Assembly: GCF_002197985.1 (NCBI RefSeq)
Contig: NZ_NBYK01000007.1
Location: forward strand, 1 to 64,000
DNA length: 64,000 nucleotides
Reading direction: 5' to 3'
Source: Halopseudomonas aestusnigri
GTDB lineage: Bacteria > Pseudomonadota > Gammaproteobacteria > Pseudomonadales > Pseudomonadaceae
Shown here: piece after piece, positions 2,704 to 15,356 of the stretch
How positions within the stretch are numbered: the first letter of the stretch is position 1
Layout: every line of letters begins with the position of its first letter
Program-made: the position numbers and the translations under genes
Notes under the pieces: generated by a model
Database searches by the model: none
What the model was told of the DNA's origin: nothing
The model's input: the letters and a program-made list of their open reading frames with translations, nothing else

Positions 2704-4797
2704 TCACAGATCGGCGAACTTGCGCCCTTCCTTGGCCAGTTTTTCCAGCAGGGCGGCCGGTTTCCACCAGGCGCCGTGTTGCTCGTGAAACTCGCAGATG
2801 CGGGCGTATACGCGATCCAGACCGATCGAGTCAGCATAGAACATCGGGCCACCCTGGTGGGCCGGGAAGCCGTAGCCGTTCAGGTAGATGACGTCGATGT
2901 CGCTGGCGCGCTGGGCAATGCCTTCTTCCAGGATCTTGGCACCTTCGTTGATCAGCGCATAGATGGTGCGCTCGATGATGTACTCATCGCTCAGTTCGCG
3001 GCGCTCAATGCCCTGTTCTTTCGAGGCGGCTTCCATGATGGCCGGCAGCTCGGGGTTCGGCAGCGGAGTACGCGAGCCCTTCTCGTAGACGTAGAAGCCC
3101 TTGCCGGTTTTCTGACCCAGCAGGCCGGCTTCGGCCATCTTGTCGAGTACCGTCGGCAGCTTGAATTCGGCCGGCAGGGTTTGACGCTGACGGTTGCGAA
3201 TGGCCAGACCGATGTCCAGACCGGACAGATCGCGCATGGCGAACGGGCCCATGGCCAGACCGAACTTGCGCAGGGCGCCGTCGATCTGCTCCGGCGTGCC
3301 GCCTTCCTCCAGCAGGAACTCGGACTCGCGACCGTACTGGAACACCATGCGGTTACCGACGAAGCCGTCGCAAACCCCAACCGGGACAGAGACTTTCTTC
3401 AGTTTCTTGCCGATTGCCATGGCCGTAGCCAGTACTTCGAAGCTGGTCTTCTCGCCGCGTACCACTTCCAGCAGGCGCATGACGTTGGCCGGGCTGAAGA
3501 AGTGCAGGCCAACCACGTCTTGCGGGCGCTTGGTGAACTGGGCGATCTGGTTCAGATCCAGCGAGCTGGTGTTGGAAGCCAGAATGGCGCCCGGCTTGCA
3601 GTTGGCGTCCAGTGCTTCGAAGACTTTCTGCTTGACGCCCATGTCTTCAAAGACGGCTTCGACAACCACGTCGACGTCCGACAGGTCAGCGTAATCGGTT
3701 ACACCGCTGATCAGGCTCATGCGCTTTTCCAGCGCGTCCTGAGTCAGGCTGCCGCGCTTGACGCTCATGCCGTAGGTGTCGCGGGCGCGCTCCAGTGCCT
3801 TGTCGCGTGCTTCGCTGCTGATTTCCAGGATCTTGACCGGGATGCCGGCGTTGGCAAAGCAGATGGCGATGCCGACACCCATGGTGCCGCCGCCAATGAC
3901 CGCGGCGGACTTGATGTCGCGCACCGGTGTGTCTTTCGGCAGGTCGTTGATCTTAGAGGCCTGACGCTCGGAGAAGAAGGCGTGAACCAGGGCGGCGCGC
4001 TGCGGCGACACCAGACACTCGGCAAACAGTTCGCGCTCGCGCTTCAGACCTTCGGCCAGCGGCAGGGCGAAGGCAGCTTCAACGGCAGAGACGCAGCGCT
4101 GGGGCGAGAACAGGCCGGGCATCTTCTTCTCGATTTCGGCGCGCTTGGCAGCGACTGCTGCGGCGTTGTCGACGCCTTCCAGTTTGTCGGTACGCTCGCC
4201 GGTGCGGCGCGGGCCCTTGCCTTCGGCCAGCAACTTCTCGGCGAAAGCGATACCGGCAGCGGTAAGATCGCCTTCAACCAGTTCGTCGATCACGCCCAGG
4301 TCGTGCGCTTCCGCGGCACCGATCGGGTTGCCGCTGACGATCATGTCCAGTGCCTTGGCTACGCCAACCAGACGCGGCAGACGCTGGGTACCGCCGGCAC
4401 CCGGCAGCAGGCCGAGTTTGACTTCCGGCAGACCGACCTTGGCGCTCTTGACGGCGATGCGGTAATGGCAGCTGACGGCGACTTCCAGACCGCCGCCCAG
4501 CGCGGTGCCGTGGATGACCGCAACGCTCGGCTTGCTGCCCGCTTCGATACCGTTGACGACTTCAGGCAGGCTCGGCTCCTTCGGCGGCTTGCCGAATTCC
4601 TTGATGTCCGCGCCGGCCATGAAGGTCATGCCTTCACAGACCAGTACGATTGCCTTTACGTCCGGATCGGCTTCGGCGGCGTTGAAGCTCTGCTGCAGAC
4701 CTTCGCGCACGGCAATACCCAGCGCATTGACCGGTGGGTTGTTCACGGTGATGACCGCGATGGCGCCTTTGCGCTCCAGAGTGACCACGTCCGACAT
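2704..4797 (-). CDS. Bifunctional enoyl-CoA hydratase / 3-hydroxyacyl-CoA dehydrogenase, PimF/FadJ-like
   Basis: A 697-residue fusion that hydrates trans-2-enoyl-CoA and oxidises the product with NAD. Residues 1-190 are a crotonase domain with the oxyanion-hole segment ALGGGLEVAV. Near residue 300 the Rossmann motif GGGTMGVGIAICFANAG begins the NAD-binding domain, followed by NTSSLDLNQIA, HFFSPANVMRLLEVV and two C-terminal dehydrogenase domains. This layout matches the peroxisomal bifunctional type and PimF rather than FadB with its partner FadA. It is the first gene of the operon, starts at ATG behind GGAGGTC, and ends in two in-frame TGA codons. Two IclR-type palindromes lie upstream. Confidence 0.92.
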   Translation of the reverse strand: MSDVVTLERKGAIAVITVNNPPVNALGIAVREGLQQSFNAAEADPDVKAIVLVCEGMTFMAGADIKEFGKPPKEPSLPEVVNGIEAGSKPSVAVIHGTALGGGLEVAVSCHYRIAVKSAKVGLPEVKLGLLPGAGGTQRLPRLVGVAKALDMIVSGNPIGAAEAHDLGVIDELVEGDLTAAGIAFAEKLLAEGKGPRRTGERTDKLEGVDNAAAVAAKRAEIEKKMPGLFSPQRCVSAVEAAFALPLAEGLKRERELFAECLVSPQRAALVHAFFSERQASKINDLPKDTPVRDIKSAAVIGGGTMGVGIAICFANAGIPVKILEISSEARDKALERARDTYGMSVKRGSLTQDALEKRMSLISGVTDYADLSDVDVVVEAVFEDMGVKQKVFEALDANCKPGAILASNTSSLDLNQIAQFTKRPQDVVGLHFFSPANVMRLLEVVRGEKTSFEVLATAMAIGKKLKKVSVPVGVCDGFVGNRMVFQYGRESEFLLEEGGTPEQIDGALRKFGLAMGPFAMRDLSGLDIGLAIRNRQRQTLPAEFKLPTVLDKMAEAGLLGQKTGKGFYVYEKGSRTPLPNPELPAIMEAASKEQGIERRELSDEYIIERTIYALINEGAKILEEGIAQRASDIDVIYLNGYGFPAHQGGPMFYADSIGLDRVYARICEFHEQHGAWWKPAALLEKLAKEGRKFADL

Positions 4798-4827
4798 GCT
4801 TGACCTCCGTCAGGATTGGGGATGGCG

Positions 4828-4842
4828 TTTCACTAGGCGAAA
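4828..4842. promoter_or_regulatory. Candidate IclR-family operator, copy 1
   Basis: TTTCAC-TAG-GCGAAA, an imperfect copy of the 6-3-6 palindrome TTTCGC-N3-GCGAAA. It lies 31 bp upstream of the FadB-like start and is centred 28 bp from the second copy at 4856-4870. Assignment to the IclR protein encoded at 5172-5990 is inferred from motif recurrence and proximity. Confidence 0.6.
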
Positions 4843-4855
4843 TAGTGAAACCGCG

Positions 4856-4870
4856 TTTCGCTAGGCAAAA
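4856..4870. promoter_or_regulatory. Candidate IclR-family operator, copy 2
   Basis: TTTCGC-TAG-GCAAAA, one mismatch from a perfect 6-3-6 palindrome. It overlaps the proposed -10 box (4867-4872) of the acyl-CoA dehydrogenase operon, so binding would occlude RNA polymerase. Confidence 0.65.
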
Positions 4871-4895
4871 TACAAAAAATAAAACCGCTTGTCGA
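4867..4895 (-). promoter_or_regulatory. Candidate sigma-70 promoter of the FadB-like operon
   Basis: On the minus strand, -35 TCGACA (4890-4895) and -10 TATTTT (4867-4872) are separated by 17 bp. Transcription would start near 4860, inside the operator pair, 60 bp ahead of the ATG at 4797. Confidence 0.5.
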
Positions 4896-4932
4896 TGCCC
4901 CCGGTGGGGGAAATGGCGGTTTATTAGTTAAG

Positions 4933-4974
4933 GTGATGAATCCAGCGGTCGCTAGCGACCGCTGGATTCATCAC
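4933..4974. repeat. Perfect 42-bp palindrome
   Basis: Two 21-bp arms (the left starts GTGATGAATCCAGCGG, the right ends CCGCTGGATTCATCAC) meet without a loop at GCT/AGC. No mismatch is present. It lies in the 374-bp gap between the FadB-like operon and the regulator and directly abuts the heptamer array that starts at 4975. No T-tract follows either arm, so it is not a standard terminator; cruciform-forming site, protein-binding site or REP-like element are all possible. Confidence 0.85.
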
Positions 4975-5054
4975 AGCTGCAAGCTGCAAGCTGCAAGCTG
5001 CAAACTGCAAACTGCAAACTGCAAACTGCAAACTGCAAACTGCAAACTGCAAGC
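4975..5054. repeat. Tandem heptamer array (AAGCTGC x3, AAACTGC x7)
   Basis: Three perfect AAGCTGC units (4981-5001) are followed by seven perfect AAACTGC units (5002-5050), flanked by partial units. A facing array of the complementary unit is at 5141-5168, with a terminator hairpin between them. Reading frames across it are artefacts of the 7-bp period. Confidence 0.93.
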
Positions 5055-5108
5055 GAAAAGCTTCAAGCGAACCCCGAACCGGGAAAACGTTGTTTCAGGT
5101 GGGCACAA

Positions 5109-5137
5109 AAAACCCGGCTAACACAGGGCCGGGTTTT
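5109..5137. terminator. Bidirectional terminator between facing heptamer arrays
   Basis: A 10-bp stem AAAACCCGGC / GCCGGGTTTT with an A/T tract on both sides. On the minus strand it ends in TTTTTTG and would terminate the IclR gene, whose stop is at 5172. Confidence 0.85.
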
Positions 5138-5140
5138 CTT

Positions 5141-5168
5141 GCAGCTTGAAGCTTGCGGCTTGCCGCTG
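5141..5168. repeat. Facing heptamer array, right arm
   Basis: GCAGCTT, GAAGCTT, GCGGCTT and GCCGCTG in succession, the reverse complement of the AAGCYGC unit. It ends 3 bp from the stop of the IclR gene and forms an inverted pair with the array at 4975-5054. Confidence 0.8.
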
Positions 5169-5171
5169 GGG

Positions 5172-5990
5172 TTAAACCCCAAGCCGCTCGATATCCCGCG
5201 CCAGCATGGCGAGTTGGTGGGCGAGCTGGTTTTTGACCCGCTCTTCGGACACCAGGTAGGAGGGTGCGCCGCAGGTCAGGACCATCAGGCTGCCGTCCTG
5301 CAGGTGCAGGGGGACGCCGGCGGCGTTGACGTTGCGGTCCCAGTCGCCGAGCGACAGACAGAAGCCGTGCTGCTGATACTCGTCAAAGCTGCGTTGCAGG
5401 GAGGCCTGCAGTTCGGGCCAGGTATCCGGGTTGCGCGCCTGGATGGCATCGAGCAGGTGGCTGCGCTCGTCTTCCTTCATGGCTGCAAGGTAGGCCCGGC
5501 CGGCGGCGGTGGTGGCCAGCGGCAGGCGTTCACCCACATCCATGCGCAGCGAGGTGGATTCCGACGGGCGGCAGTTTTCGACGTAGATCATCGACAGACG
5601 ATCTCGGCAGGTCAGGCCGACCGAGGTATTGGTGTTGCGGGCGAATTCGTCGAGATAGGGCTTGGCGAGCTGGCGTACCCGCAGGTTGGACACATAGGCA
5701 TATCCCAGTGCCAGCACCCCGGAGTCGAGCTGGTATTTTTCCAGCTGGGTTGAGTAGCTCAAATAGCCGAGCTTGGTCAGGGTATAGGTCATGCGCGACA
5801 CGGTCGGCTTGGGCAGCCCGGTGATGCGGGCGATGTCCTGATTGCCCATGACCACCGAGCCCTGACTGAAGGCGCGTAACACGTCCAACCCACGAGAGAG
5901 TGCTTCGACGAACTTGCGATCCTTGGCAGGGGATTCCTTTACTGTTGCTTCCAACTCATCTTTCATTGGGTTGTATACCTTGTGGCCCAT
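5172..5990 (-). CDS. IclR-family transcriptional regulator
   Basis: A protein of 272 residues with an N-terminal winged helix (about 28-90, including GNQDIARITGLPKPTVSRMTYTL) and a C-terminal effector domain (about 100-265) of the IclR/PcaR/PobR type. It is encoded between the FadB-like operon and the acyl-CoA ligase and divergently from the latter, so it is the natural regulator of the locus. The first ATG (5990) has no visible ribosome-binding site; an internal ATG at 5966, with AAGG upstream, may be the true start, giving 264 residues. The ligand is unknown, presumably the acid or its CoA ester. Its gene ends beside a bidirectional terminator. Confidence 0.9.
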   Translation of the reverse strand: MGHKVYNPMKDELEATVKESPAKDRKFVEALSRGLDVLRAFSQGSVVMGNQDIARITGLPKPTVSRMTYTLTKLGYLSYSTQLEKYQLDSGVLALGYAYVSNLRVRQLAKPYLDEFARNTNTSVGLTCRDRLSMIYVENCRPSESTSLRMDVGERLPLATTAAGRAYLAAMKEDERSHLLDAIQARNPDTWPELQASLQRSFDEYQQHGFCLSLGDWDRNVNAAGVPLHLQDGSLMVLTCGAPSYLVSEERVKNQLAHQLAMLARDIERLGV

Positions 5991-6139
5991 CGGAGGGTGC
6001 GGCCGAATGTGATTTGATGCTTTCTTTTATTGTTATGGTCAGAGCGCGGAACGATATCACGATCAATGGTTCTGCACAGTGACACACTGACACTCTGTTG
6101 CTGTTTTGTTACCGGGGGCAATGCCGACTGTCTCGATCA

Positions 6140-6169
6140 TTGCACAGCCTGCCTCGAATAGAATAGCAT
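6140..6169 (+). promoter_or_regulatory. Candidate promoter of the acyl-CoA ligase gene
   Basis: -35 TTGCAC (6140-6145), 18-bp spacer, -10 TAGCAT (6164-6169). The start of transcription would fall near 6176, just ahead of the operator at 6185-6199. Confidence 0.4.
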
Positions 6170-6184
6170 CTTTTTGGTATTTCA

Positions 6185-6199
6185 TTTCGCAGTGCAAAA
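6185..6199. promoter_or_regulatory. Candidate IclR-family operator, copy 3
   Basis: TTTCGC-AGT-GCAAAA, one mismatch from a perfect 6-3-6 palindrome, 26 bp before the ligase ATG and downstream of the proposed promoter. The location fits repression. Confidence 0.62.
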
Positions 6200-6225
6200 C
6201 AATAGTTCAAAAACAAGAGGCTGAG

Positions 6226-7851
6226 ATGTCTACTCCTGAGCATTACGCCGTCAGCGCACAACTGGCAGAGCTGGGTCACACCACGATCTTCGATATTCTT
6301 GACCAATCCTGCCGTCGTTATGGCGACCAGCCTGCGTTCTCCTGCGGTGCCGACACTCTGACCTTTAACCAGCTTCGTGGCAGGGCCGATGCCTTTGCTC
6401 GCTACCTGCGTCAGCATGCCGGCCTGCAGCCGGGTGATCGACTGGCCATTCAGTTGCCCAACCTGCTGCAATACACCATTGCTATCTTCGGCGCGCTGCG
6501 CGCCGGCCTGGTGATCGTCAACACCAACCCCCAGTACACCCCCTACGAAACCCGCCACCAGTTCGCCGACTCCGGCGCCCGTGCGGTGGTAGTACTCGAC
6601 AAGTTGATCCCGCTGGTGCGCAAGATCCAGGACGAGACCGAGATCGAAACGCTGATCGTCACCAGTATGGATGACTTCAGCAACCCGCAGTACGACGCGA
6701 GTGCCGCCGATGAAGTGCGCTTTATGCAGGCGCTGCGTCTGGGTGACGAGCTGGCCCCGGTGACCATCGATCGTGAACTGGACGACCTGGCGCTGCTGCA
6801 GTACACCGGCGGTACTACCGGTGTCTCCAAGGGCGCAATGCTGACCCACCGCAATATTCTCTGTAACGTGCTGCAGGCAGTCAGCATCTTGAAGGAAGGC
6901 GACGTGACTTATGGCGGTGAGGTGCGGGTCTCGCCGTTGCCGCTGTACCATATCTTTGCCTTCACCGCGAACTGCATCGCCTCGGTCTTTACCGGTTTCC
7001 ATACCATCCTGATCACCAATCCGCGTGATCTCGATGGCATGATCGCCGACCTGAAACGCCATCCGTTCACCCTGCTGACCGGCATCAACTCGCTGTTTGT
7101 ATCGCTGATGAATCACCCGGACTTCGACAGTGTCGACTTCAGCCGGCTGAAGTGGGTCAACTCCGGAGGTGCGCCGCTGAACACCGAGATCGCCCGCCGC
7201 TGGCAGGAGCGCACCGGCAGTGTGGTGCGGGAAGGTTACGGCCTGACCGAAACCTCTCCTGTGGTGGTCGCTTCGACCTCGAAGACCCCTTACAAGGAAG
7301 GCTTTATCGGTCAGCCGGTAATCGATACCTGGGTCAAGACTGTAGATGACGACGGTAAGGAAACACCGCGTGGTGAGCCGGGCGAAGTGCTGATCAAGGG
7401 GCCGCAGGTGATGCAGGGCTACTGGCACCGTCCGGATGAGACGGCCGCAACCTTTACCGAAGACGGCTGGCTGAAGACCGGCGACGTTGGCCTGCTGGAC
7501 GAGGAGGGCTTCCTGAAGCTGGTGGACCGCAAGAAGGACATGATCCTGGTCTCCGGCTTCAACGTCTATCCCAACGATGTTGAAGACGCGGTCATGCGTC
7601 ATGCCGGCATTCGCGAGTGTGTTGCCGTTGGCGTGCCGGACGAACGGACCGGCGAGGCGATCAAGATATTTGTCAGCCTCAACGATGCGACTCTGGATGA
7701 AGCGGCCATCATCGCCCACTGCCGCGAGAATCTGACCGGCTACAAGATTCCCAAGCACGTCGAGATTCGCGACGACCTGCCCAAGTCGACTGTCGGCAAG
7801 CTGCTGCGTCGGGTGCTGCGCGACGAAGCGCGCGGTGAGGCCAAGGCGTGA
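6226..7851 (+). CDS. Acyl-CoA ligase (AMP-forming, FadD/PimA-like)
   Basis: Activates a carboxylic acid to its CoA thioester through an acyl-adenylate, the entry step for the neighbouring beta-oxidation genes. The 541-residue product shows the P-loop YTGGTTGVSKG at 193-203, the GYGLTETSP motif at 337-345, the TGDVG and DRKKDMILVSG segments of the hinge, and the C-terminal catalytic lysine (PKSTVGK, K525). The ATG at 6226 is preferred because AAGAGG lies seven bases upstream and the protein then aligns with family N-termini; a 40-codon extension upstream has no such support. It is coupled to the next gene by a GTGA overlap. Confidence 0.92.
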   Translation: MSTPEHYAVSAQLAELGHTTIFDILDQSCRRYGDQPAFSCGADTLTFNQLRGRADAFARYLRQHAGLQPGDRLAIQLPNLLQYTIAIFGALRAGLVIVNTNPQYTPYETRHQFADSGARAVVVLDKLIPLVRKIQDETEIETLIVTSMDDFSNPQYDASAADEVRFMQALRLGDELAPVTIDRELDDLALLQYTGGTTGVSKGAMLTHRNILCNVLQAVSILKEGDVTYGGEVRVSPLPLYHIFAFTANCIASVFTGFHTILITNPRDLDGMIADLKRHPFTLLTGINSLFVSLMNHPDFDSVDFSRLKWVNSGGAPLNTEIARRWQERTGSVVREGYGLTETSPVVVASTSKTPYKEGFIGQPVIDTWVKTVDDDGKETPRGEPGEVLIKGPQVMQGYWHRPDETAATFTEDGWLKTGDVGLLDEEGFLKLVDRKKDMILVSGFNVYPNDVEDAVMRHAGIRECVAVGVPDERTGEAIKIFVSLNDATLDEAAIIAHCRENLTGYKIPKHVEIRDDLPKSTVGKLLRRVLRDEARGEAKA

Positions 7852-8516
7852 GCGCGCCGCTGCAGTTGACCATTGCAGATGGCATTGCCGAAATCCGGTT
7901 GGACGACGGCAAGGTCAACGCGCTGTCGGAAAGCATGCTGGAACAGTTGCTCGCGGCCATTGCCAAGGCGGCGGAGGCGGACGCCGCGCTGTTGATCAGC
8001 GGCCGTCCCGGCGTGTTCAGCGGCGGTTATGACCGCAAGCTGATCGATGCCGGTGGGCCGGCCTGTGATGCCATGCGCGCAGCCGGTGACCGGCTAACGC
8101 TGGCGCTGCTCGACTATCCCGCGCCAGTGGTGATTGCTGCCACCGGTCATGCCATGGCCAAGGCGGCGTTTATGCTGCTGCTGGCTGATTACCGACTGGG
8201 CACTGAAGGCGATTACCGCGTCTCGCTGAATGAAGTGGCCATCGGCATGACCATGCCCGATGGCGCCATGTTGCAGGCGCGGGCACGGCTGTCGCCTCAG
8301 TGGCTCAACCGCTGTGTGTTGCAGGCCGAGGTGTTTGCCTCGGCCGGCGCGCTGGAAGTCGGTTTCTTTGATGAGCTGCAGCCGGCGGAGCAACTGCTTC
8401 AGCGTGCCCGTGCCAAGACCCGACAGCTGGCCGGGCTGAATCGCCGCGCCTACCGGGAGACCCGTGCGCTTCTGCATGCGCCGCTGCGTGAGGCGTTTGT
8501 CGGTCTGCAGGGGTAA
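7848..8516 (+). CDS. Short crotonase / enoyl-CoA hydratase family protein
   Basis: A 222-residue crotonase-fold protein, about 35 residues shorter than typical enoyl-CoA hydratases. The start GTG overlaps the ligase stop codon (GTGA), so the two are translationally coupled. Typical segments are IRLDDGKVNALS, GRPGVFSGGYD and the oxyanion region around ATGHAMAKAAFMLLLADYR. The usual catalytic glutamates are not obvious: the region that would carry them reads NEVAIGMTMPDGAM. It resembles a widespread Pseudomonas group annotated only as crotonase family. Hydration of an enoyl-CoA is likely, but another crotonase activity cannot be excluded. Confidence 0.85.
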   Translation: MSAPLQLTIADGIAEIRLDDGKVNALSESMLEQLLAAIAKAAEADAALLISGRPGVFSGGYDRKLIDAGGPACDAMRAAGDRLTLALLDYPAPVVIAATGHAMAKAAFMLLLADYRLGTEGDYRVSLNEVAIGMTMPDGAMLQARARLSPQWLNRCVLQAEVFASAGALEVGFFDELQPAEQLLQRARAKTRQLAGLNRRAYRETRALLHAPLREAFVGLQG

Positions 8517-8522
8517 CGGGAG

Positions 8523-8585
8523 GGCCGAGTTTCAACTCGGCCATAGCGGTGCTCGAAGCCTTGCAGGTCGAGCGGGAGCTCGACC
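8523..8585. repeat. REP-like double hairpin, copy 1
   Basis: Hairpin B (GGCCGAGTT-tc-AACTCGGCC, 8523-8542) and hairpin A (GGTCGAGC-GGGA-GCTCGACC, 8566-8585) separated by 23 bp. It fills the gap between convergent genes. The same pair in the opposite order occurs at 50730-50893, and hairpin A with a variant partner at 48240-48288. Confidence 0.88.
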
Positions 8586-8597
8586 TTTCCATTCTGT

Positions 8598-9425
8598 TTA
8601 TTCCTTGAAATACGCAACCTGGGTGGTGGTCAGCAGCAGCTGGCCGTCATCACTCCACAGGTGGGCGATCTGATCCGAATAATTGTTGTGCATGCGTGTC
8701 GCCCGGGCCTGGCCCAGCAGGTGGCGGTCGCCGGCGCGTGCCAGTTGATCGGTATCGGCGTGGAAGTAGTGGGTCAGCGACACTGTGCCGGCGGGAGTAA
8801 AGCGCTGACGGCGGTGGAAAATCCGTGGCGCAAATACGTCGCCCAGCGCGGTCAGTGACGCGAAATCCAGTGGCCGGGGAGGGTTGTCGCGGGTCCACAA
8901 CAGGGTTTCGCTGTGGGCGTCCTCGGGGTTGCCGTCGCCACGGCCAGGGTCAAACAAGCCTGAAACGTAGCGAAAATCATAGTTGCGAAACCAGTTGCGC
9001 TCGCCACGTTCCACCCGCGGCAGGCTGTCAGCGGCCGGTGCTGCAGGCATGTTGTGCTGCTGCTCTGACCAGGTCTCGCGGCGGGTGGCGAAGAACGCGG
9101 TACCGCTGGTGACAACTTCGCCGTTCTGTTTCTGCAGCAGCAGCCAGTGCTGGGTCGAGCGGTTAGTGCGCAGGGGGATGGTTTCCAGCTCGAAGTCGCC
9201 GAGTTGGACCGGGCCGGCAAAGTTGACGGTCAGCGAGATCGGCTCGCCGATACGTTCCGGGTGCTGTAAGGCGCCGTTGAGCAGGATGGCTGCGGTCACG
9301 CCGCCGAATGGCCCGACCATGTTCTGAAAACTGTCGTCGACGTTGCCCTTGAACAGGTTGGGGCCAGCCGCGGTCAGCGCAATGGCACGGTCAAAGGCAT
9401 GGTTGTGGGGGGGGGCTTCGGTCAT
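8598..9425 (-). CDS. Acyl-CoA thioesterase, TesB-like double hotdog
   Basis: A protein of 275 residues from the ATG at 9425; an upstream GTG-type extension is not supported. The N-terminal half contains NVDDSFQNMVGPFGGVTAAILLNGAL and the C-terminal half ends with a hotdog strand containing the segment HLLGQARATRMHNNYSDQ, matching the acyl-CoA thioesterase II superfamily. It hydrolyses acyl-CoA to free acid and CoA. It is convergent with the crotonase gene, and a REP-like element separates the two. Its place beside the catabolic locus suggests CoA release during overload, but it may be an independent gene. Confidence 0.8.
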   Translation of the reverse strand: MTEAPPHNHAFDRAIALTAAGPNLFKGNVDDSFQNMVGPFGGVTAAILLNGALQHPERIGEPISLTVNFAGPVQLGDFELETIPLRTNRSTQHWLLLQKQNGEVVTSGTAFFATRRETWSEQQHNMPAAPAADSLPRVERGERNWFRNYDFRYVSGLFDPGRGDGNPEDAHSETLLWTRDNPPRPLDFASLTALGDVFAPRIFHRRQRFTPAGTVSLTHYFHADTDQLARAGDRHLLGQARATRMHNNYSDQIAHLWSDDGQLLLTTTQVAYFKE

Positions 9426-9580
9426 TTGCGGGATTCCGTTACGGCGGGAGCGATTCAATATGACGGTCATAATAGGCTGCTGTTGAATGCGTAGACCAGC
9501 AAGCTTGATGCTGTGAATCCGGCGCTATCGACTGGGGAGAAGCGGGGCGGGAGCTGATTCGGTGCGGCTGTCTGCCAGCG

Positions 9581-9607
9581 TTGCGGCACCCGTTGCAGGT
9601 GCCGCAA
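9581..9607. terminator. Hairpin downstream of the YbhB-like gene
   Basis: A perfect 10-bp stem (TTGCGGCACC / GGTGCCGCAA) with a 7-nt loop, 9 bp past the stop of the gene at 9616. No T-run follows, so it may be an imperfect terminator or an mRNA 3'-stabilising hairpin. Confidence 0.5.
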
Positions 9608-9615
9608 CAGGGGAG

Positions 9616-10098
9616 TTAGCCGCGTTGATAGGTGCCAATCAGCCGGTTCATGGCCTTGGCGTGTGGCTCGATCTTCTCGAGCAGTTGCCACAGCGACAGT
9701 CCGGCTGGCAGATTCAGCTCGGCGTCCAGCGCGATAACCCAGAAATAGTACTTGTGCTGGCCATGACCTTCCGGCGGCAGCGGACCGTTGTAGCCGCTGT
9801 TGCCAAAGTTGTTCACGCCCTGGGTGTAGTCGGCGCAGCCTTCGGCGAGTTCGCTGACGCTCGCCGGAATGTTGTACAGCACCCAGTGCACAAAGCCGTA
9901 GGTGCCGTTGGCGGAAATCAGCGGGGCATCCGGATCGTGACAGATGACGGCAAAGGATTTGGTACCCGCTGGTGCGTTCTTCCAGCTTAGGGCGGGAGAC
10001 ACGTCAACGTCGTCGCCGGTGTGCCTGGCAGTGATGGCGCCGTTGTTGGCAAAGGCGCTGCTGGTCAGTTCCAGTTCATTGGAAAATGCGAATCCCAT
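9616..10098 (-). CDS. YbhB/YbcL family protein (PEBP fold)
   Basis: A protein of 160 residues with the signatures of bacterial phosphatidylethanolamine-binding-like proteins: CHDPDAP, VHWVLYNIP and GYNGPLPPEGHGQHKYYFW. The family binds small anionic ligands at a conserved pocket formed by the DPDAP and GHG segments; the cellular role in bacteria is not settled. No signal peptide is seen, so it should be cytoplasmic. The ATG at 10098 has a GGAGAAC site upstream. It stands alone between the thioesterase and a small membrane protein. Confidence 0.9.
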   Translation of the reverse strand: MGFAFSNELELTSSAFANNGAITARHTGDDVDVSPALSWKNAPAGTKSFAVICHDPDAPLISANGTYGFVHWVLYNIPASVSELAEGCADYTQGVNNFGNSGYNGPLPPEGHGQHKYYFWVIALDAELNLPAGLSLWQLLEKIEPHAKAMNRLIGTYQRG

Positions 10099-10171
10099 GG
10101 TGTTCTCCTCAGATTTTTTAGCCGAAAACTACCGAAATACTACTATGCACCGGTCTGCCGACAAGCGCGTG

Positions 10172-10471
10172 TCAATTGATCAGGGCGCTCAATAGCCAGA
10201 GCCCGAGCAGGACCCAGATGATCCCCAGTACGATCTTGCGGCGGATAAAGGCCCGCACGCCGGTGTAGATCAAAAACAGGCCAAGAATCACCGCGGCGAT
10301 GCTCAACAGGTTGCTGTTGACGCCCAGGGCGCGGGAAAAGCCGTTGATGAAATCGGAGCTGGCATTGCTCAGCATGGTAAACAGCCAGATCAGGCTGTCG
10401 ATAACAACGCGGACGACGCTGCCGATGGCGGAACCGAGCCATTCAAAGGGGCTGCTGGAGTTGAGCTGCAT
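10172..10471 (-). CDS. Small membrane protein of unknown function
   Basis: A predicted 99-residue protein with three hydrophobic stretches: VVRVVIDSLIWLFTML, LLSIAAVILGLFLIYTG and IVLGIIWVLLGLWLLSALI. I do not recognise the family. The ATG at 10471 is chosen because codons further upstream lie in the heptamer repeat at 10511-10545 and would encode repeat-derived residues. No strong ribosome-binding site is visible. It is flanked by a repeat pair upstream and the PEBP gene downstream. Confidence 0.6.
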   Translation of the reverse strand: MQLNSSSPFEWLGSAIGSVVRVVIDSLIWLFTMLSNASSDFINGFSRALGVNSNLLSIAAVILGLFLIYTGVRAFIRRKIVLGIIWVLLGLWLLSALIN

Positions 10472-10510
10472 GCAAGGGGTCGCTGACAGGGAATGAGGGG
10501 TAGAAGCTAT

Positions 10511-10622
10511 CAGCTTCAAGCCGCAAGCTTCAAGCCGCAAGCTAAAACCCAAACCAGGACGAGGCAGGGGTTCTCAGCTTGTAGCTTGTAGCTTGTAGCT
10601 TGTAGCTTGTAGCTTGTAGCTC
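10511..10622. repeat. Inverted pair of heptamer arrays, locus 2
   Basis: The left array (10511-10545) reads CAGCTTC, AAGCCGC, AAGCTTC, AAGCCGC, AAGCTAA. The right array (10575-10622) is six GTAGCTT-type units, five of them perfect. They face each other across about 29 bp. The right end is 11 bp from the thiolase stop codon. Confidence 0.9.
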
Positions 10623-10632
10623 CGCGAGCGCG

Positions 10633-11832
10633 TTAAACGCGCTCGATCACCGCCGCCACACCCTGGCCCAGGCCGATACACAGGCTGACCAGTGCGTAAC
10701 GCTTGCCGGTGCGCTCCAGTTGGCGCAGGGCGGTCAGGGTCAGGCGCGCGCCGGAGGCGCCGAGCGGGTGGCCGACTGCGATGGCGCCGCCGTTCGGGTT
10801 CAGGCGCGGGTCATCGAAGGCGATACCCAGCTGCTTGGCACAGCCGAGGACCTGGGAGGCGAAGGCCTCGTTGATCTCGATCACGTCCATGTCATCCAGT
10901 GTCAGGCCCGCGCGGCTCAGTGCCTTCTTGCAGGCTTCGACCGGGCCCAGGCCCATGACGCGCGGAGCGACACCGGACACGGCGCCGGCCAGGATGCGGG
11001 CGCGCGGCTTGACGCCGTACTTCTGACCAATGGCTTCGCTGCCGATGATCAGCGCAGCAGCGCCGTCGTTGACGCCAGACGCGTTGCCTGCGGTAACCAC
11101 GCCGCCTTCAAACAGCGGGCGCAGACCGGACAGGGCAGCCAGATCGCTGCTCGGGCGCGGATGTTCGTCCTGATCAATCACCTTCGCCGGCTTCTTGCGG
11201 CCCTGGGAAACTTCGACCGGGTGTATCTCTTCGGCGAAGAAACCGTCAGCGCGAGCCTTCTCGTACAGCGCCTGGCTGCGAGCGGCGTAGGTATCGGCTT
11301 CCTCACGGCTGATGCCCAGATCGGCAGCGACGTTGTCGGCGGTCTGCGGCATGGTGTCATCGCCGTACTGCTTCTCGACCTTGGGGTTCGGGAAGCGCGC
11401 GCCGATGGTGCTGTCGAAGGCGCGGAAGTCGCGGCTGTAGGCGCTTTCGCTCTTGGCGATAACGAATGGCGCGCGGCTCATGCTTTCAACACCACCGGCT
11501 ACGAACAGCTCACCTTCACCGGACTTGACCGCACGGGCGGCGTCGAGAATGGCCGCGAGGCCGGAACCGCACAGGCGGTTGACGGTGACGCCGGCGACTT
11601 CCTGTGGCAGACCGGCCAGCAGACCGGCATGGCGGGCGACGTTGCGCGCGTCTTCACCGGCCTGGTTGGTATTGCCCATGACCACGTCTTCGTAGTCCTG
11701 ACCCTCGAAGGGGTTGCGGGTGACTACGGCACGAATGACTTCGGCCAGCAGGTCATCGGGACGCACGCTGGCCAGGGCGCCGGCGTGGCGGCCGAAAGGC
11801 GAACGGAGGCCATCATAGATATAGGCAGTCAT
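10633..11832 (-). CDS. Acetyl-CoA acyltransferase (thiolase), PcaF/PaaJ-like
   Basis: Cleaves 3-ketoacyl-CoA with CoA to release acetyl-CoA. The 399-residue sequence has the nucleophile C88 in VNRLCGSGL, the histidine in GGAIAVGHPLGASG and the second cysteine in SLCIGLGQGVA. The CIGxGQG ending is closer to beta-ketoadipyl-CoA thiolases (PcaF/PaaJ) than to the CIGGGMG of FadA, which would suit a dicarboxyl-CoA intermediate. It starts 4 bp after the dehydrogenase gene with AGGAG upstream, so the two form an operon behind IclR operator copy 4. Confidence 0.9.
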   Translation of the reverse strand: MTAYIYDGLRSPFGRHAGALASVRPDDLLAEVIRAVVTRNPFEGQDYEDVVMGNTNQAGEDARNVARHAGLLAGLPQEVAGVTVNRLCGSGLAAILDAARAVKSGEGELFVAGGVESMSRAPFVIAKSESAYSRDFRAFDSTIGARFPNPKVEKQYGDDTMPQTADNVAADLGISREEADTYAARSQALYEKARADGFFAEEIHPVEVSQGRKKPAKVIDQDEHPRPSSDLAALSGLRPLFEGGVVTAGNASGVNDGAAALIIGSEAIGQKYGVKPRARILAGAVSGVAPRVMGLGPVEACKKALSRAGLTLDDMDVIEINEAFASQVLGCAKQLGIAFDDPRLNPNGGAIAVGHPLGASGARLTLTALRQLERTGKRYALVSLCIGLGQGVAAVIERV

Positions 11833-11836
11833 GCTC

Positions 11837-13351
11837 TTACTCCTGGAAATCGGGTGTGGTCAAAGGCAGTTCCAGCTGTACGCGACGACGCAGCCAGGGG
11901 CTGGGGCGGTAGCGCGGCTCGCCATAGTTGGTCTGCAGGTTGTTGAGGACGGCAAGAATGTTGGCTGCGCCGTAATGCTCACCGAAGGCCAGCGGGCCCT
12001 TGGGATAGCCCAGCGCCAGTTGAATGGCGCGGTCCAGCGTTTGCGGGGTGGTAATGCCCTTCTGCACGATTTCGCAGCCCAGATTGACCACGCTGGCGAT
12101 CAGGCGCTGGATGACAAAGCCGGGAGAGTCGTTGATCACCTCGACGGGTACACCATCGGCGCTGAGGGCCTGGCGCGCCTGGGCGACAACATCGGCACTG
12201 GCGGCGGGCTGGCGCATCAGCGTGCGGCGTTTTTCCCAGTTGGCAAAGCTGTCGAGTGCCAGCGTGCGTTCAGCCGGCAGACCCAGTTGGGTCAGCGCGG
12301 TGCTGCAGTCATCGCCCAGCGGGGTGACCAGGCAGATGGCGTCGTCCGACGGCTTACTGCCGGTTTCCAGGGTGGCGCCTGCCTTGGTCAATACGTCTGC
12401 GACCTGATTGCGCAGCGCGTCATCATCGGTTTCCAGCCAGAAAGGACGAGTGATCAGCACGGTCTCGGGCTGCGGCTCGGACGGCTCGATCTTCTGGCCG
12501 TCTTCGTAACGGTAGAAGCCCTGACCGGTCTTGCGACCCAGCAGGCCGGCGGCAACACGCTGGGCTGCAATAAAGGATGGGGTGTAACGCGGGTCGTGAT
12601 AGAACTGCTCGTAGACCGATTCCATCACCGCGTGGGAAACGTCCAGACCGGTCAGATCAAACAGCTCGAACGGCCCCATGCGAAAGCCCGGGCCGTCACG
12701 CAGGATGCGGTCAATCTGCTGCACGCTGGCAACGCCTTCGCTGAGCATGCGCAGGGCCTCGGTACCGAAGGCACGGCCGGCGTGGTTGACCAGGAAGCCG
12801 GGGGTGTCCGGGGTGATCGCCGGGAAGTGACCGGCCTGTTCGGCCAGCGCTACCAGAGACTGAATGTGACGCTCGTCGGTGCGCTCGCCGCGCACGACCT
12901 CGACGATCTTCATCAGCGGCACCGGATTGAAGAAGTGGAAGCCGGCTACCCTCTCAGGATGCTTGGCCGTGCTGGCGATGCGGGTGACCGACAGCGAGGA
13001 GGTGTTGGTTGCCAGCACGCAGTCTGTGCTGACAATGGCTTCCAGGTCAGCGAACAGCTTCTGTTTGACTTCCAGCAGCTCGACAATGGCCTCGATTACC
13101 AGGTCGCAGTCGGCCAGATCGGTCAGCTTGGCAGCCGGCTGCATGCGCGCGACGGTCGCTTCCAGCTCGGCTTCGGTCATCTTGCCCTTGGCCTGGGCGC
13201 GCTGCAGCAGGTTGCGGTTGAAGGCCAGTGCATCGTCGATGGCCTCTGCACGGGTATCGAACAGCAGAACCTGCTGACCACTGCTGGCGAACAGCTGGGC
13301 GATACCACGCCCCATGGCTCCGGCGCCGATGACGCCAATCCGCTTGAACAT
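11837..13351 (-). CDS. 3-hydroxyacyl-CoA dehydrogenase, PaaH-like
   Basis: An NAD-dependent dehydrogenase of 504 residues, the long type with two C-terminal 3HCDH domains as in PaaH. The Rossmann motif GVIGAGAMGRGIAQLF begins at residue 6; NTSSLSVTRIA and HFFNPVPLMKIVEVV follow; a second dehydrogenase domain occupies about 410-490. The ATG at 13351 has AGGAGGC upstream and is preferred over an in-frame extension through the operator. A 3-hydroxyadipyl-CoA-like substrate is plausible given the thiolase partner. A promoter and a perfect palindrome precede it. Confidence 0.9.
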   Translation of the reverse strand: MFKRIGVIGAGAMGRGIAQLFASSGQQVLLFDTRAEAIDDALAFNRNLLQRAQAKGKMTEAELEATVARMQPAAKLTDLADCDLVIEAIVELLEVKQKLFADLEAIVSTDCVLATNTSSLSVTRIASTAKHPERVAGFHFFNPVPLMKIVEVVRGERTDERHIQSLVALAEQAGHFPAITPDTPGFLVNHAGRAFGTEALRMLSEGVASVQQIDRILRDGPGFRMGPFELFDLTGLDVSHAVMESVYEQFYHDPRYTPSFIAAQRVAAGLLGRKTGQGFYRYEDGQKIEPSEPQPETVLITRPFWLETDDDALRNQVADVLTKAGATLETGSKPSDDAICLVTPLGDDCSTALTQLGLPAERTLALDSFANWEKRRTLMRQPAASADVVAQARQALSADGVPVEVINDSPGFVIQRLIASVVNLGCEIVQKGITTPQTLDRAIQLALGYPKGPLAFGEHYGAANILAVLNNLQTNYGEPRYRPSPWLRRRVQLELPLTTPDFQE

Positions 13352-13376
13352 GCTTTGCCTCCTGAAGTACGCTCTG

Positions 13377-13391
13377 TTTCGCATGGCGAAA
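13377..13391. promoter_or_regulatory. Candidate IclR-family operator, copy 4 (perfect)
   Basis: TTTCGC-ATG-GCGAAA, a perfect 6-3-6 palindrome that extends to GTTTCGC...GCGAAAC. It lies between the proposed transcription start and the ATG of the 3-hydroxyacyl-CoA dehydrogenase gene, a position that fits repression. Confidence 0.68.
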
Positions 13392-13415
13392 CGGTATTTC
13401 GTTTAAAGTGCTGCG

Positions 13416-13444
13416 AGATTAAATCCTGCGCTGTAGGAGTGCAA
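13416..13444 (-). promoter_or_regulatory. Promoter of the dehydrogenase-thiolase operon
   Basis: On the minus strand, -35 TTGCAC (13439-13444), 17-bp spacer, -10 TAATCT (13416-13421). Transcription would start near 13409, about 18 bp before the operator. Confidence 0.6.
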
Positions 13445-13587
13445 GTTTGGCGACAGTCTGGCGGCGCTTGTGCGTGGCATACTTGCGCTCTTCAAACTGG
13501 CCGTCATTGCGTGCCGGGCAGGCTCGCCCGTCGCGCTCTCCCGCTGGCCAGCCAGATCGAGTGTAGTGAATAAAAGGTGTCGCACCC

Positions 13588-14016
13588 GTGAATCAAGATG
13601 AACGTCAGGCCATTGCCCGTACCGTTACCGGCTTCTTTCAGGAGCTTGGTGCCCAGCTGGAAGAGTACTCGGAGGGGCGCGCTGTTGTCGGCCTGACCCT
13701 GACCGAAAAGCACATGAACAACGCCAGCTCGTTGCACGGTGGGGTGACCGCCAGTCTGCTTGATATCGCCATGGGGCTGTGCGGCACCTGGGCGGCATCG
13801 CCGCAGGAGCGTCGGGTTGCCATTACCCTGTCGCTCAATACCAACTTCACTTCAACCGCTCCGGTCGGCACCCATGTGCGTGCCGTTGCCACCTGTCGCA
13901 ACGCGGGGCACAAGATTTTCATGGCCAGCTGTGACCTGCTGGACCAGAACGACAGGCTGATCGGCTTTGGCGAAGGTGTATTCAAGAAGGGCGCTTACCG
14001 CAAGGATCTGCCGTGA
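13588..14016 (+). CDS. PaaI-type thioesterase (hotdog)
   Basis: A 142-residue single hotdog-domain protein with the family segment ASSLHGGVTASLLDIAMG (HGG motif) and NTNFTSTAPVGTHVRA. It should hydrolyse acyl- or aryl-CoA thioesters. The start is GTG with AAAGG ten bases upstream. It is divergent from the dehydrogenase-thiolase operon across 236 bp and shares a GTGA overlap with the following membrane-protein gene, so the two are co-translated. Whether it belongs to the IclR regulon is unclear. Confidence 0.87.
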   Translation: MNQDERQAIARTVTGFFQELGAQLEEYSEGRAVVGLTLTEKHMNNASSLHGGVTASLLDIAMGLCGTWAASPQERRVAITLSLNTNFTSTAPVGTHVRAVATCRNAGHKIFMASCDLLDQNDRLIGFGEGVFKKGAYRKDLP

Positions 14017-15356
14017 GTGCGGCGCTGCTGCCGCTTGGCGTTGCTCTTGAGCTGGCGGGGCTGCTCAGTCACCAGCACTGGTTGAGCTGGCTTGCTGCTG
14101 GCGCCTTTGCTGTCTATTTCCTGCGCTTTTTCACCCGCCTGAACCCCTATCCGCGCTGGCTCGGGATCGGCACGCTGGCAGTGCTGGTGGCGGCCATCGT
14201 GCTGGCACGTCCAGGTGCCGAGCTCTGGCCAAAGCTGGCCAGTTCGGTGGCTTACTACACCAGCTTTCTGGGTGCGCTGGGGTTGATGCAGTTGCTGGCG
14301 CAGCGTCTGCCGCAGTTGCGCGAGCTGCACAAGGCGCTGCTGTCCGGCTCCAAGGTCGTGCTGTATCCGCGCTACGTGCTGGCTGCCGGCAGCATTGGCT
14401 CGATTCTCAATTTCGGCATGATGAATCTGCTCTGTGGCACCCTGAGTGAGCATCTCAAGCGTTATTCGCTGAGCGAGGAGCAGCGCCGTGCCGGTCTGCG
14501 CAGCGTCATGGTGACGACGTTGCGAGGGTTTGCTCTGGTGCCGCTGCTGGCGCCAACCAGCGTGACCATCGCCATCATCTCGCGGGAAATGCCCGAGCAG
14601 TCCTGGAGCACCATGGTGCCTTACGGCGCGGTTGCTGCGCTGATGATGATCGTGGTCGGCTGGCGCAGGGAAACCCGCGGACTGCTGGCGCTGCGCGACA
14701 ATATTGGCGACAGCAGCAAGGCTGATGGCATGCCGCAGTTGTTGGTTGGCAGTCTGCTGGGGCTTGGTGCCATCGGCCTGCTGGCTTCCGTGACAACACT
14801 CAGCGCGTCGCAGGCGGCGATGGTGCTGGTGCCGGCTGGTGTCATCAGCTACCTGCTGTGGCGCGAACGCAAGCCTGCGCAGGTGCTGCAGGAAGTGACC
14901 GACAATATGGTCAGCATGCACAACGAGATGTTCATCTTTGGCTGCGCCGCGTTGCTGGGCGGAGTGCTGGGCGCGGTAGCACCGCTTGAGCAGATTGCGG
15001 CGTGGCTTGCGCAGGAACCCAAGTACAACGTGCTGCTGGCGATCGGCAGCCTGTTCAGTACCATCATTTTGGCAGTGCTGGGGCTAGCGCCCATTGTGTC
15101 GCTGTCGCTGACGGCGGGCCTGCTGGCGCAGCTGTCGCTGCTGGGCGTGCCGATCATGACGCCGGCTGTGGGTCTGATGTGTGGCTTCTCTCTGGCGATG
15201 ATCTTCTCGCCCTTCGGTCCCTCGACCCTGATTCTGTCGCGCTACAGTGGCGAGTCACCCTACCGGGTCGCCTTTGGCTGGAATGGGCGCTTTGTCGCCA
15301 GTGTTCTGCCGTTGCTGTTGTTGCTGATTTTCGTTACCTACTGGTTGCAGAGCTGA
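14013..15356 (+). CDS. Polytopic membrane protein, transporter-like, unknown substrate
   Basis: A 447-residue protein with about 11-12 hydrophobic segments. The start GTG overlaps the thioesterase stop, and only 1 bp separates its stop from mutM. A long loop with [15 protein letters not shown] lies between segments, and two related halves are suggested by the repeated pattern of G/S-rich hairpins ([25 protein letters not shown]), reminiscent of ion-transporter (IT) superfamily folds. I cannot name the substrate. A gene of unknown function also precedes mutM in other Pseudomonas. Confidence 0.72.

Follow-up and report, generated by a model that had tools for sequence, protein, structure and literature searches.

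Locus organization

The stretch analyzed here, referred to below as the window, comprises the first 64,000 nucleotides of contig NZ_NBYK01000007.1 of Halopseudomonas aestusnigri (assembly GCF_002197985.1). Within 8.6 kb of it lie four copies of the palindrome TTTCGC-N3-GCGAAA (4828-4842, 4856-4870, 6185-6199 and 13377-13391), set among beta-oxidation genes and the gene for an IclR-family regulator (5172-5990, minus strand), whose predicted operator this palindrome is. Spacing and strand group the catabolic genes into operon A (4797 to 299, minus strand), operon B (6226 to 8516, plus strand) and operon C (13351 to 10633, minus strand). The labels pimF, had, tes2, TAXI and memb are working names.

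Operon A begins with pimF (2704-4797, minus strand), whose product is a FadJ-like enoyl-CoA hydratase/3-hydroxyacyl-CoA dehydrogenase according to Pfam and NCBIfam; neither collection gave a match to a PimF model, and the name is a working label. Two acyl-CoA dehydrogenase genes follow on the same strand, one nearest to PimC (1444-2640; 496.7 bits, below the cut-off of 623.85) and the other nearest to PimD (299-1432; 386 bits, below the cut-off of 652.7). Operon B encodes an acyl-CoA ligase (6226-7851, plus strand; Pfam, NCBIfam) that resembles FadD and PimA at scores below the cut-offs of those models, and a crotonase/enoyl-CoA hydratase family protein (7848-8516, plus strand; NF004858, 231 bits against a cut-off of 171). 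Operon C contains had, the gene for a PaaH-type 3-hydroxyacyl-CoA dehydrogenase (11837-13351, minus strand; NCBIfam), and a 3-oxoadipyl-CoA thiolase gene (10633-11832, minus strand; NF006001, 714.7 bits, above the cut-off of 622). The start of had is taken at 13351; the listed open reading frame start at 13384 falls within the operator at 13377-13391. Operons A to C would presumably serve dicarboxylate breakdown, an assignment made because a 3-oxoadipyl-CoA thiolase is combined with transporters, while the PimC, PimD and PimA scores lie below the equivalog cut-offs.

The regulator, a protein of 272 amino acids resembling PcaR, PcaU and PobR (Pfam, NCBIfam), is the proposed sensor of the regulon. 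It carries an IclR helix-turn-helix (HTH) domain and an IclR effector domain, both above the Pfam gathering score (HTH_IclR, 8.9e-16; IclR_C, 7.6e-26), which bears out the statement in an earlier note on this DNA that an IclR-type regulator is encoded between the sites. Its best NCBIfam match, the PcaR/PcaU/PobR model TIGR02431, scores 136.5 bits and does not reach the cut-off of 284.75. Among solved structures the top-ranking chain is 5whm, and the Pca-regulon regulator 8eju ranks sixth. The protein is 99% identical to its counterpart in Halopseudomonas oceani, and across 93 loci (a few genomes being counted twice) conservation is 92% in residues 24-85, which hold the HTH domain, versus 77% in residues 98-272, which form the effector domain. 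Three members of the genus (G016, G020 and G029) carry a second regulator copy, 65-69% identical, at another place. An extra operator lies close to the regulator's own start in two related loci, L026 (9924) and L030 (6046), and suggests autoregulation there; the window has none at that place.

Distribution of the palindrome

Re-scanning the window and re-reading the coordinates located all four palindromes where the earlier note had placed them, with just one of them perfect (13377-13391) and one mismatch in each of the others. The accompanying remark that no similar palindrome was noticed elsewhere in the window also holds: the four are the only sites with two or fewer mismatches in 64 kb, all remaining matches having three. 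At one mismatch or fewer, four sites compare with 0.18 expected under a first-order Markov model of the window; at two or fewer, the same four compare with 3.1 expected under that model; and at three or fewer, 27 matches compare with 31.5 expected from shuffled sequences. Because enrichment is seen at one mismatch and not at three, the excess is confined to near-perfect sites.

The whole 3.83-Mb genome contains 13 sites with at most one mismatch, compared with five for the reversed pattern. Four of the 13 fall in the present 8.6 kb, one lies upstream of an unlinked major facilitator superfamily (MFS) gene (L004), and eight have no evident link to the pathway; this is how the motif is spread with respect to promoters, a point on which the earlier note had made its proposal depend, and the MFS site is the predicted further member that the scan brought to light. 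Seven of the eight unlinked sites (L003, L005, L006, L010, L011, L012 and L013) fall within mechanically called reading frames, which are no proof of a gene, and the eighth (L002) is intergenic, beside a gene labelled by eye as a putative methyltransferase. The eight are treated as chance occurrences and not as members of the regulon.

A stricter 17-bp form, RTTYYGC-N3-GCRRAAY, was derived from the sites of relatives. It occurs exactly at five places in the genome, three of them in the window (4855, 6184 and 13376), and its reversed pattern at none. One of the other two, at C14:46991 (L109), was rejected as a member since it falls inside a reading frame, as do exact 17-mers of some relatives (L198-L202). 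The other, at C1:634993 (L105, L190), is flanked by an AraC-type gene on one side and a DUF1302/DUF1329 pair on the other (Pfam annotation covering L190 only), has counterparts in six further genomes of the genus (L191, L195, L196, L197, L203 and L204) and is possibly a further regulon member.

Promoters and operator architecture

Comparison with relatives draws on 61 named loci. Of these, 27 (L014-L040; Halopseudomonas, Pseudomonas or uncultured) are termed Halopseudomonas-type loci; the remaining 34 were listed for sites with at most one mismatch and a few of them were inspected. Three other genera, g15 (Stutzerimonas), g8 and g14, were sampled at the main locus in 32 of their 72 regulator-bearing genomes (18 of g8, two of g14 and 12 of g15).

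Upstream of pimF, a promoter on the minus strand (4867-4895) with the -35 hexamer TCGACA (4895-4890), a 17-bp spacer and the -10 hexamer TATTTT (4872-4867) is the sole sigma-70-like match that a promoter scan returned between 4700 and 6300, where 0.7 would be expected by chance. Its 17-bp spacing is kept in 25 of 26 Halopseudomonas-type loci, L025 not being matched by the search pattern. Operator 1 (4856-4870, minus strand; 17-mer 4855-4871) overlaps the -10 hexamer and is conserved in orthologous promoters of four genera. Operator 2 (4828-4842, minus strand; 17-mer 4827-4843) lies 28 bp further downstream, beyond the expected transcription start. It agrees at 13-14 of the 14 defined positions (one scored loosely as Y) in 26/26 Halopseudomonas-type loci, and at no more than eight of the 14 in any of the 32 loci from the other genera. 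Three base pairs beyond operator 1 stands a third half-site, GTTTCAC on the minus strand (4845-4851). The corresponding pattern RTTYCRY is complete (7/7) in 56 of 58 promoters from four genera and reaches 6/7 in the other two, the background frequency of a complete match in this pool of upstream sequence being 0.7%.

The ligase operator (6185-6199, plus strand) is situated downstream of a candidate acyl-CoA ligase promoter (6140-6169, plus strand), whose hexamers TTGCAC (6140-6145) and TAGCAT (6164-6169), 18 bp apart, were picked by eye from the alignment; the operator starts 15 bp further on. This layout, with a spacer of 17-18 bp and an operator 14-15 bp later, is kept in 26 of 27 loci, and the promoter scan of 4700-6300 did not report the candidate. 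The third box is degraded at the ligase, matching at 4-6 of seven positions in 44 promoters. The perfect operator (13377-13391, minus strand) serves the 3-hydroxyacyl-CoA dehydrogenase/thiolase operon and is preceded, at a distance of 3 bp, by a third half-site, ACGAAAT on the minus strand (13396-13402). The mirror box RYGRAAY is complete in 20 of the 21 Halopseudomonas-type loci, the remaining one having 6/7, and in all 17 Stutzerimonas had promoters scored.

The pimF and had operators are thus three-box sites with alternating half-site direction, the arrangement reported for PcaU, PobR and HmgR. Positions on or just after the -10 element would suit a repressor. As to the view that each site lies at or just downstream of a plausible promoter, the scan supports it at pimF and the hexamers chosen by eye support it at the ligase; at had, a scan of 13300-13650 recognized no promoter.

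Conservation and co-occurrence

Sites with at most two mismatches are present at the pimF promoter in 25 of 26 Halopseudomonas-type loci, about 40 bp before the ligase start in 27/27, and at 21/21 retained had promoters; the had set leaves out four of 25 matches (L025, L027, L029 and L035; 4-6 mismatches) that were judged to be the 3-hydroxyacyl domain of pimF. In L026 and L030, the second site nearer iclR matches equally well or better than the ligase site. None of 91 control upstream regions contains a site of this quality (tesB 0/19, pebp 0/25, thl 0/22 and acdL 0/25), the thl and acdL regions being mostly coding DNA. The regions upstream of tes2 (20/21) and iclR (26/27) do contain one; they share the had and ligase intergenic regions and are counted neither as controls nor as additional evidence. 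The palindrome is therefore common to the promoters of all three operons, and conserved at all three in relatives, in agreement with the proposal that one palindrome marks three catabolic promoters.

The pimF site extends to the other genera, occurring in 18/18 g8 loci (2-3 mismatches), 2/2 g14 loci (two mismatches) and 12/12 g15 loci (1-2 mismatches); overall, 30 of the 32 have two mismatches or fewer and the other two have three. The g8 ligase promoter retains it in 17/17 cases (1-3 mismatches). Eight pimF-like genes with 48-50% identity, from genomes lacking a regulator match at E 1e-90, have a best upstream match of 4-5 mismatches in every case. The strongest single test is provided by Stutzerimonas, since the motif is separated there from its neighbourhood: in a sample of 20 of the 48 g15 genomes that carry the membrane protein described below, had and the membrane-protein gene are located either on a different contig from the regulator gene or at least some 200 kb from it. 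The operator is found with 0-2 mismatches in all 17 had promoters scored, and a site is also present in the remaining three of the 20 loci (L214, L227 and L230). Since a thioesterase gene usually intervenes, a site with 0-1 mismatch immediately precedes the membrane-protein gene in only three of these loci (L214, L219 and L230).

Across 248 genomes of the family, the regulator was detected in 109 (E 1e-90) and pimF in 107 (at least 67% identity), eight further genomes having the 48-50% matches alone. Only G018 and G028 belong to one set and not to the other, and in both the contig with the regulator ends shortly after that gene, about 1.2 kb and 0.14 kb past it (records L019 and L030). Genomes with the regulator have on average 4.70 exact 17-mers and those lacking it 1.71, and the reversed control gives 1.82 versus 1.19; as the genomes compared are related and not independent, the p-values of this comparison are not to be taken literally. 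The corresponding values are 5.18 versus 1.40 in g15 and 8.00 versus 2.28 in g14. The separated genes accordingly very probably form a single IclR regulon, as had been proposed: the motif fits the IclR class, is conserved, is absent from the four sets of control promoters and tracks the regulator over the 248 genomes.

Transport genes with the same predicted operator

The unlinked MFS gene, at C1:608509, has an operator 54 bp upstream, apparently between the promoter elements as judged by eye. The gene occurs in 30 of 37 genomes of the genus, and in 30/30 of its loci a site with 1-2 mismatches is found 46-58 bp upstream. Stutzerimonas and related genomes have a homologous MFS gene near the regulator with a site (L042 and L047, by eye; L175 and L176, 67-68% identity). 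In some close relatives (L031, L033, L034 and L192-L194; L193 checked with Pfam), a site precedes a TRAP system with an NMT1-like receptor, which we take to be of the TAXI type. A DctP TRAP system takes this place in L196, and an OprD porin and MFS pair does so in g14 (L156 and L157, of which L157 was checked). The predicted regulon would therefore cover the unlinked MFS transporter and, in some genomes, TRAP or OprD genes.

Divergent from the 13377 operator are a hotdog (PaaI-like) thioesterase gene (13588-14016, plus strand; Pfam, NCBIfam) and memb (14013-15356, plus strand), which overlaps it by 4 bp, is divergent from operon C and encodes an unnamed membrane protein of 447 amino acids. Because the site sits between divergent genes, this pair (13588-15356) may be a further target. 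The sequence of the membrane protein has no Pfam match up to E 5 and no match to a Protein Data Bank sequence up to E 1, and its only NCBIfam match is at chance level (E 1.4). Its structural model, built on an 18-sequence alignment, has a predicted local distance difference test score of 86.9. Foldseek gave 33 matches at E 0.001 or better, nearly all of them TRAP, DASS (VcINDY, NaDC3) or other anion carriers (sulfate, phosphate, arsenite), the best at 7.7e-06 with a TM-score of 0.55 and a root-mean-square deviation of 7.1. The model thus shares the TRAP DctM/DASS ion-transporter fold, at the level of fold only, which does not fix the substrate.

The membrane protein is present in 87 of the 248 genomes (E 1e-30; a fragment at a contig end in G032), and all 87 also have the regulator; the regulator occurs without it in 22 genomes, the 21 of g8 and G194. 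It is probably a member of the regulon. Since its gene adjoins the operator, its fold resembles TRAP/DASS transporters and all its carriers have the regulator, it might be a permease of a new, unnamed family for medium-chain dicarboxylates (adipate to azelate), with MFS, TRAP or OprD genes under the same operator according to lineage. This assignment is tentative, at slightly less than even odds.

A predicted IclR repressor of dicarboxylate catabolism

The best explanation, to which a probability of roughly 0.8 is assigned, is that the palindrome is the operator of the 5172-5990 IclR protein, which would repress the dicarboxylate operons together with uptake genes. On the best reading, the regulator would be an IclR-family repressor of PcaR-like type whose signal is a medium-chain dicarboxylate, either free or as its CoA ester. 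In the absence of inducer, it would bind the sites on or just after the -10 element, which at pimF and had would mean binding to a three-box site of two converging half-sites and a third at 3 bp, and would thereby repress the three operons. Their products (the ligase, the two dehydrogenases, the hydratase/dehydrogenase, the PaaH-type dehydrogenase and the thiolase) are predicted to activate and beta-oxidize medium-chain dicarboxylic acids, and one of these acids or its CoA ester would probably be the signal that releases the regulator. With the same operator on the uptake genes, import and catabolism would rise together. What the sequences show is where the sites lie, how they are conserved and which genes co-occur; binding by the regulator itself, repression as its mode of action, and the identity of ligand and substrate are inferred.

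A much less probable alternative keeps the same sites and regulator and makes the protein mainly an activator like PcaR or PcaU, always bound, with the ligand turning transcription on. The nearest named model of the regulator is PcaR/PcaU/PobR, for neither the ligase nor had did the scan recognize a sigma-70-like promoter, and the title of Guo & Houghton 1999 reports both activation and repression by PcaR from -35 and -10 sites. Blocking is nonetheless favoured by the location of pimF operator 2 and the ligase operator downstream of the predicted start and by the seeming position of the MFS operator between promoter elements, and AzeR is called a repressor in the part of an editorial that was available (PMC7398563). 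It is improbable that another regulator binds the motif, such as a PsrA-like TetR protein or the product of the TetR-like gene (labelled by eye) that adjoins iclR in Stutzerimonas loci. Beta-oxidation genes are often under TetR control. A FadP-like TetR example is mentioned for beta-proteobacteria in the accessible text of PMC12543098. The TetR-like protein, however, gave no match in the genome of the window at E 1e-40 and matches in only three of 37 genomes of the genus to which that genome belongs, and it is present in some genomes that lack the IclR gene, those of g11 among them, whereas the motif tracks the IclR gene across genomes. The pattern GAAAC-N4-GTTTC, which we take to be that of PsrA-type regulators, has no exact match in the window. 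Control by TetR or PsrA was rejected on these grounds. That the palindromes are due to chance, or belong to a dispersed repeat or terminator element, is very unlikely indeed: the 13377 palindrome does score as terminator-like on the plus strand, but the scan reported no terminator at the other three sites, the motif is rare in the genome, and its positions and third box are conserved across genera, for which reasons this explanation was discarded.

Several observations weigh against the proposed repressor. The acyl-CoA dehydrogenases and the ligase score below the pim cut-offs, so that the substrate is not fixed, and operator position is no proof of repression, because the PcaR title reports both modes from such sites. 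The pimF promoter of L025 retains just a three-mismatch site, and the MFS site does not have the flanking R and Y positions of the 17-mer. In g8, where had comes after the ligase gene on the same strand, no had promoter (0/18) has a site with two or fewer mismatches, and the reversed control (6.67 per genome) exceeds the motif (3.05), a failure of enrichment that is perhaps due to base composition. Dicarboxylate genes of beta-proteobacteria are, moreover, placed under LysR and FadP-like TetR regulators in the available portion of PMC12543098.

Relation to known systems

The nearest functional analogue of the proposed repressor, likened by description only, may be AzeR, the azelate repressor of Pseudomonas nitroreducens. 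The accessible portions of PMC10945470 and PMC7398563 describe an IclR-type regulator from a cluster required for using azelate by a beta-oxidation-like route, and data consistent with a repressor, and the former also describes a Phycobacter azeR cluster in which a TRAP transporter has a PaaI thioesterase and an acyl-CoA ligase downstream. The eLife introduction (PMC10945470), in contrast, gives the regulatory targets of AzeR as unknown, and the same portions of both sources contain no operator or multi-locus regulon. With the PcaR/PcaU/PobR branch the regulator shares its best NCBIfam match and palindromic operators; it differs in that its score is 136.5 against 284.75 and its targets resemble dicarboxylate beta-oxidation rather than protocatechuate use. 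In the available text of PMC8222616, three-box operators with boxes in alternating direction are reported for PcaU, PobR and HmgR, and the PcaR operator of C. glutamicum, GTTCGC-N3-GCGAAC, is close to the present palindrome, whereas the consensus sites of P. putida and A. baylyi differ from it. The sites also fit the IclR motif class WTTYCRYW3RYGRAAW, WTT-11-AAW, of Suvorova & Gelfand 2021 (PMC8222616), where the text available describes three-box and tandem sites, the tandem centres being 18-22 nt apart as against 28 bp here.

As for the catabolic genes, the dicarboxylate operon pimFABCDE of Rhodopseudomonas palustris, known here from the title of Harrison & Harwood 2005, resembles them in that its two acyl-CoA dehydrogenases and its ligase come from the families found here; the present genes differ in forming three operons with PaaH and 3-oxoadipyl-CoA thiolase and in scoring below the pim cut-offs. 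Beta-proteobacteria, likened by description only, have paired acyl-CoA dehydrogenase genes that share an operon and show fitness defects specific to dicarboxylates, as well as a PcaR-type IclR repressor affecting glutarate use, and differ in the LysR and FadP-like TetR regulators of their dicarboxylate beta-oxidation (PMC12543098, in the part available). IclR control of catabolism, the motif class, three-box operators and AzeR as an azelate regulator are thus already known, and the supplement of PMC8222616 may already include the orthologous group described here. Literature listings, with subscription papers and supplements outside their coverage, contained no description of this regulon in Halopseudomonas. 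An IclR operator with a multi-locus regulon is well supported in the present case, and the unnamed transporter is its most novel part.

Other intergenic elements

Between pimF and iclR lies a 42-bp perfect palindrome (4933-4974). In L014-L019 its ends GTGATGAA/TTCATCAC are kept and the stem varies, often on both sides; it may represent either a terminator hairpin or a repeat element. Tandem 7-bp repeats (CTGCAAG/CTGCAAA, and CTTGTAG by eye) occupy intergenic DNA beside the regulated genes at 4978-5050 and 10500-10630.

Biological significance

Medium-chain dicarboxylates, which serve as plastic monomers and also derive from plants, have poorly known sensors and permeases; the eLife paper states that before its own work no bacterial protein for azelate uptake had been known (PMC10945470). 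If the proposal is true, a defined operator with its resident regulator would constitute a candidate sensor part, and the regulon would supply a list of genes that belong to one pathway but are scattered over the genome, together with a candidate unnamed transporter family.

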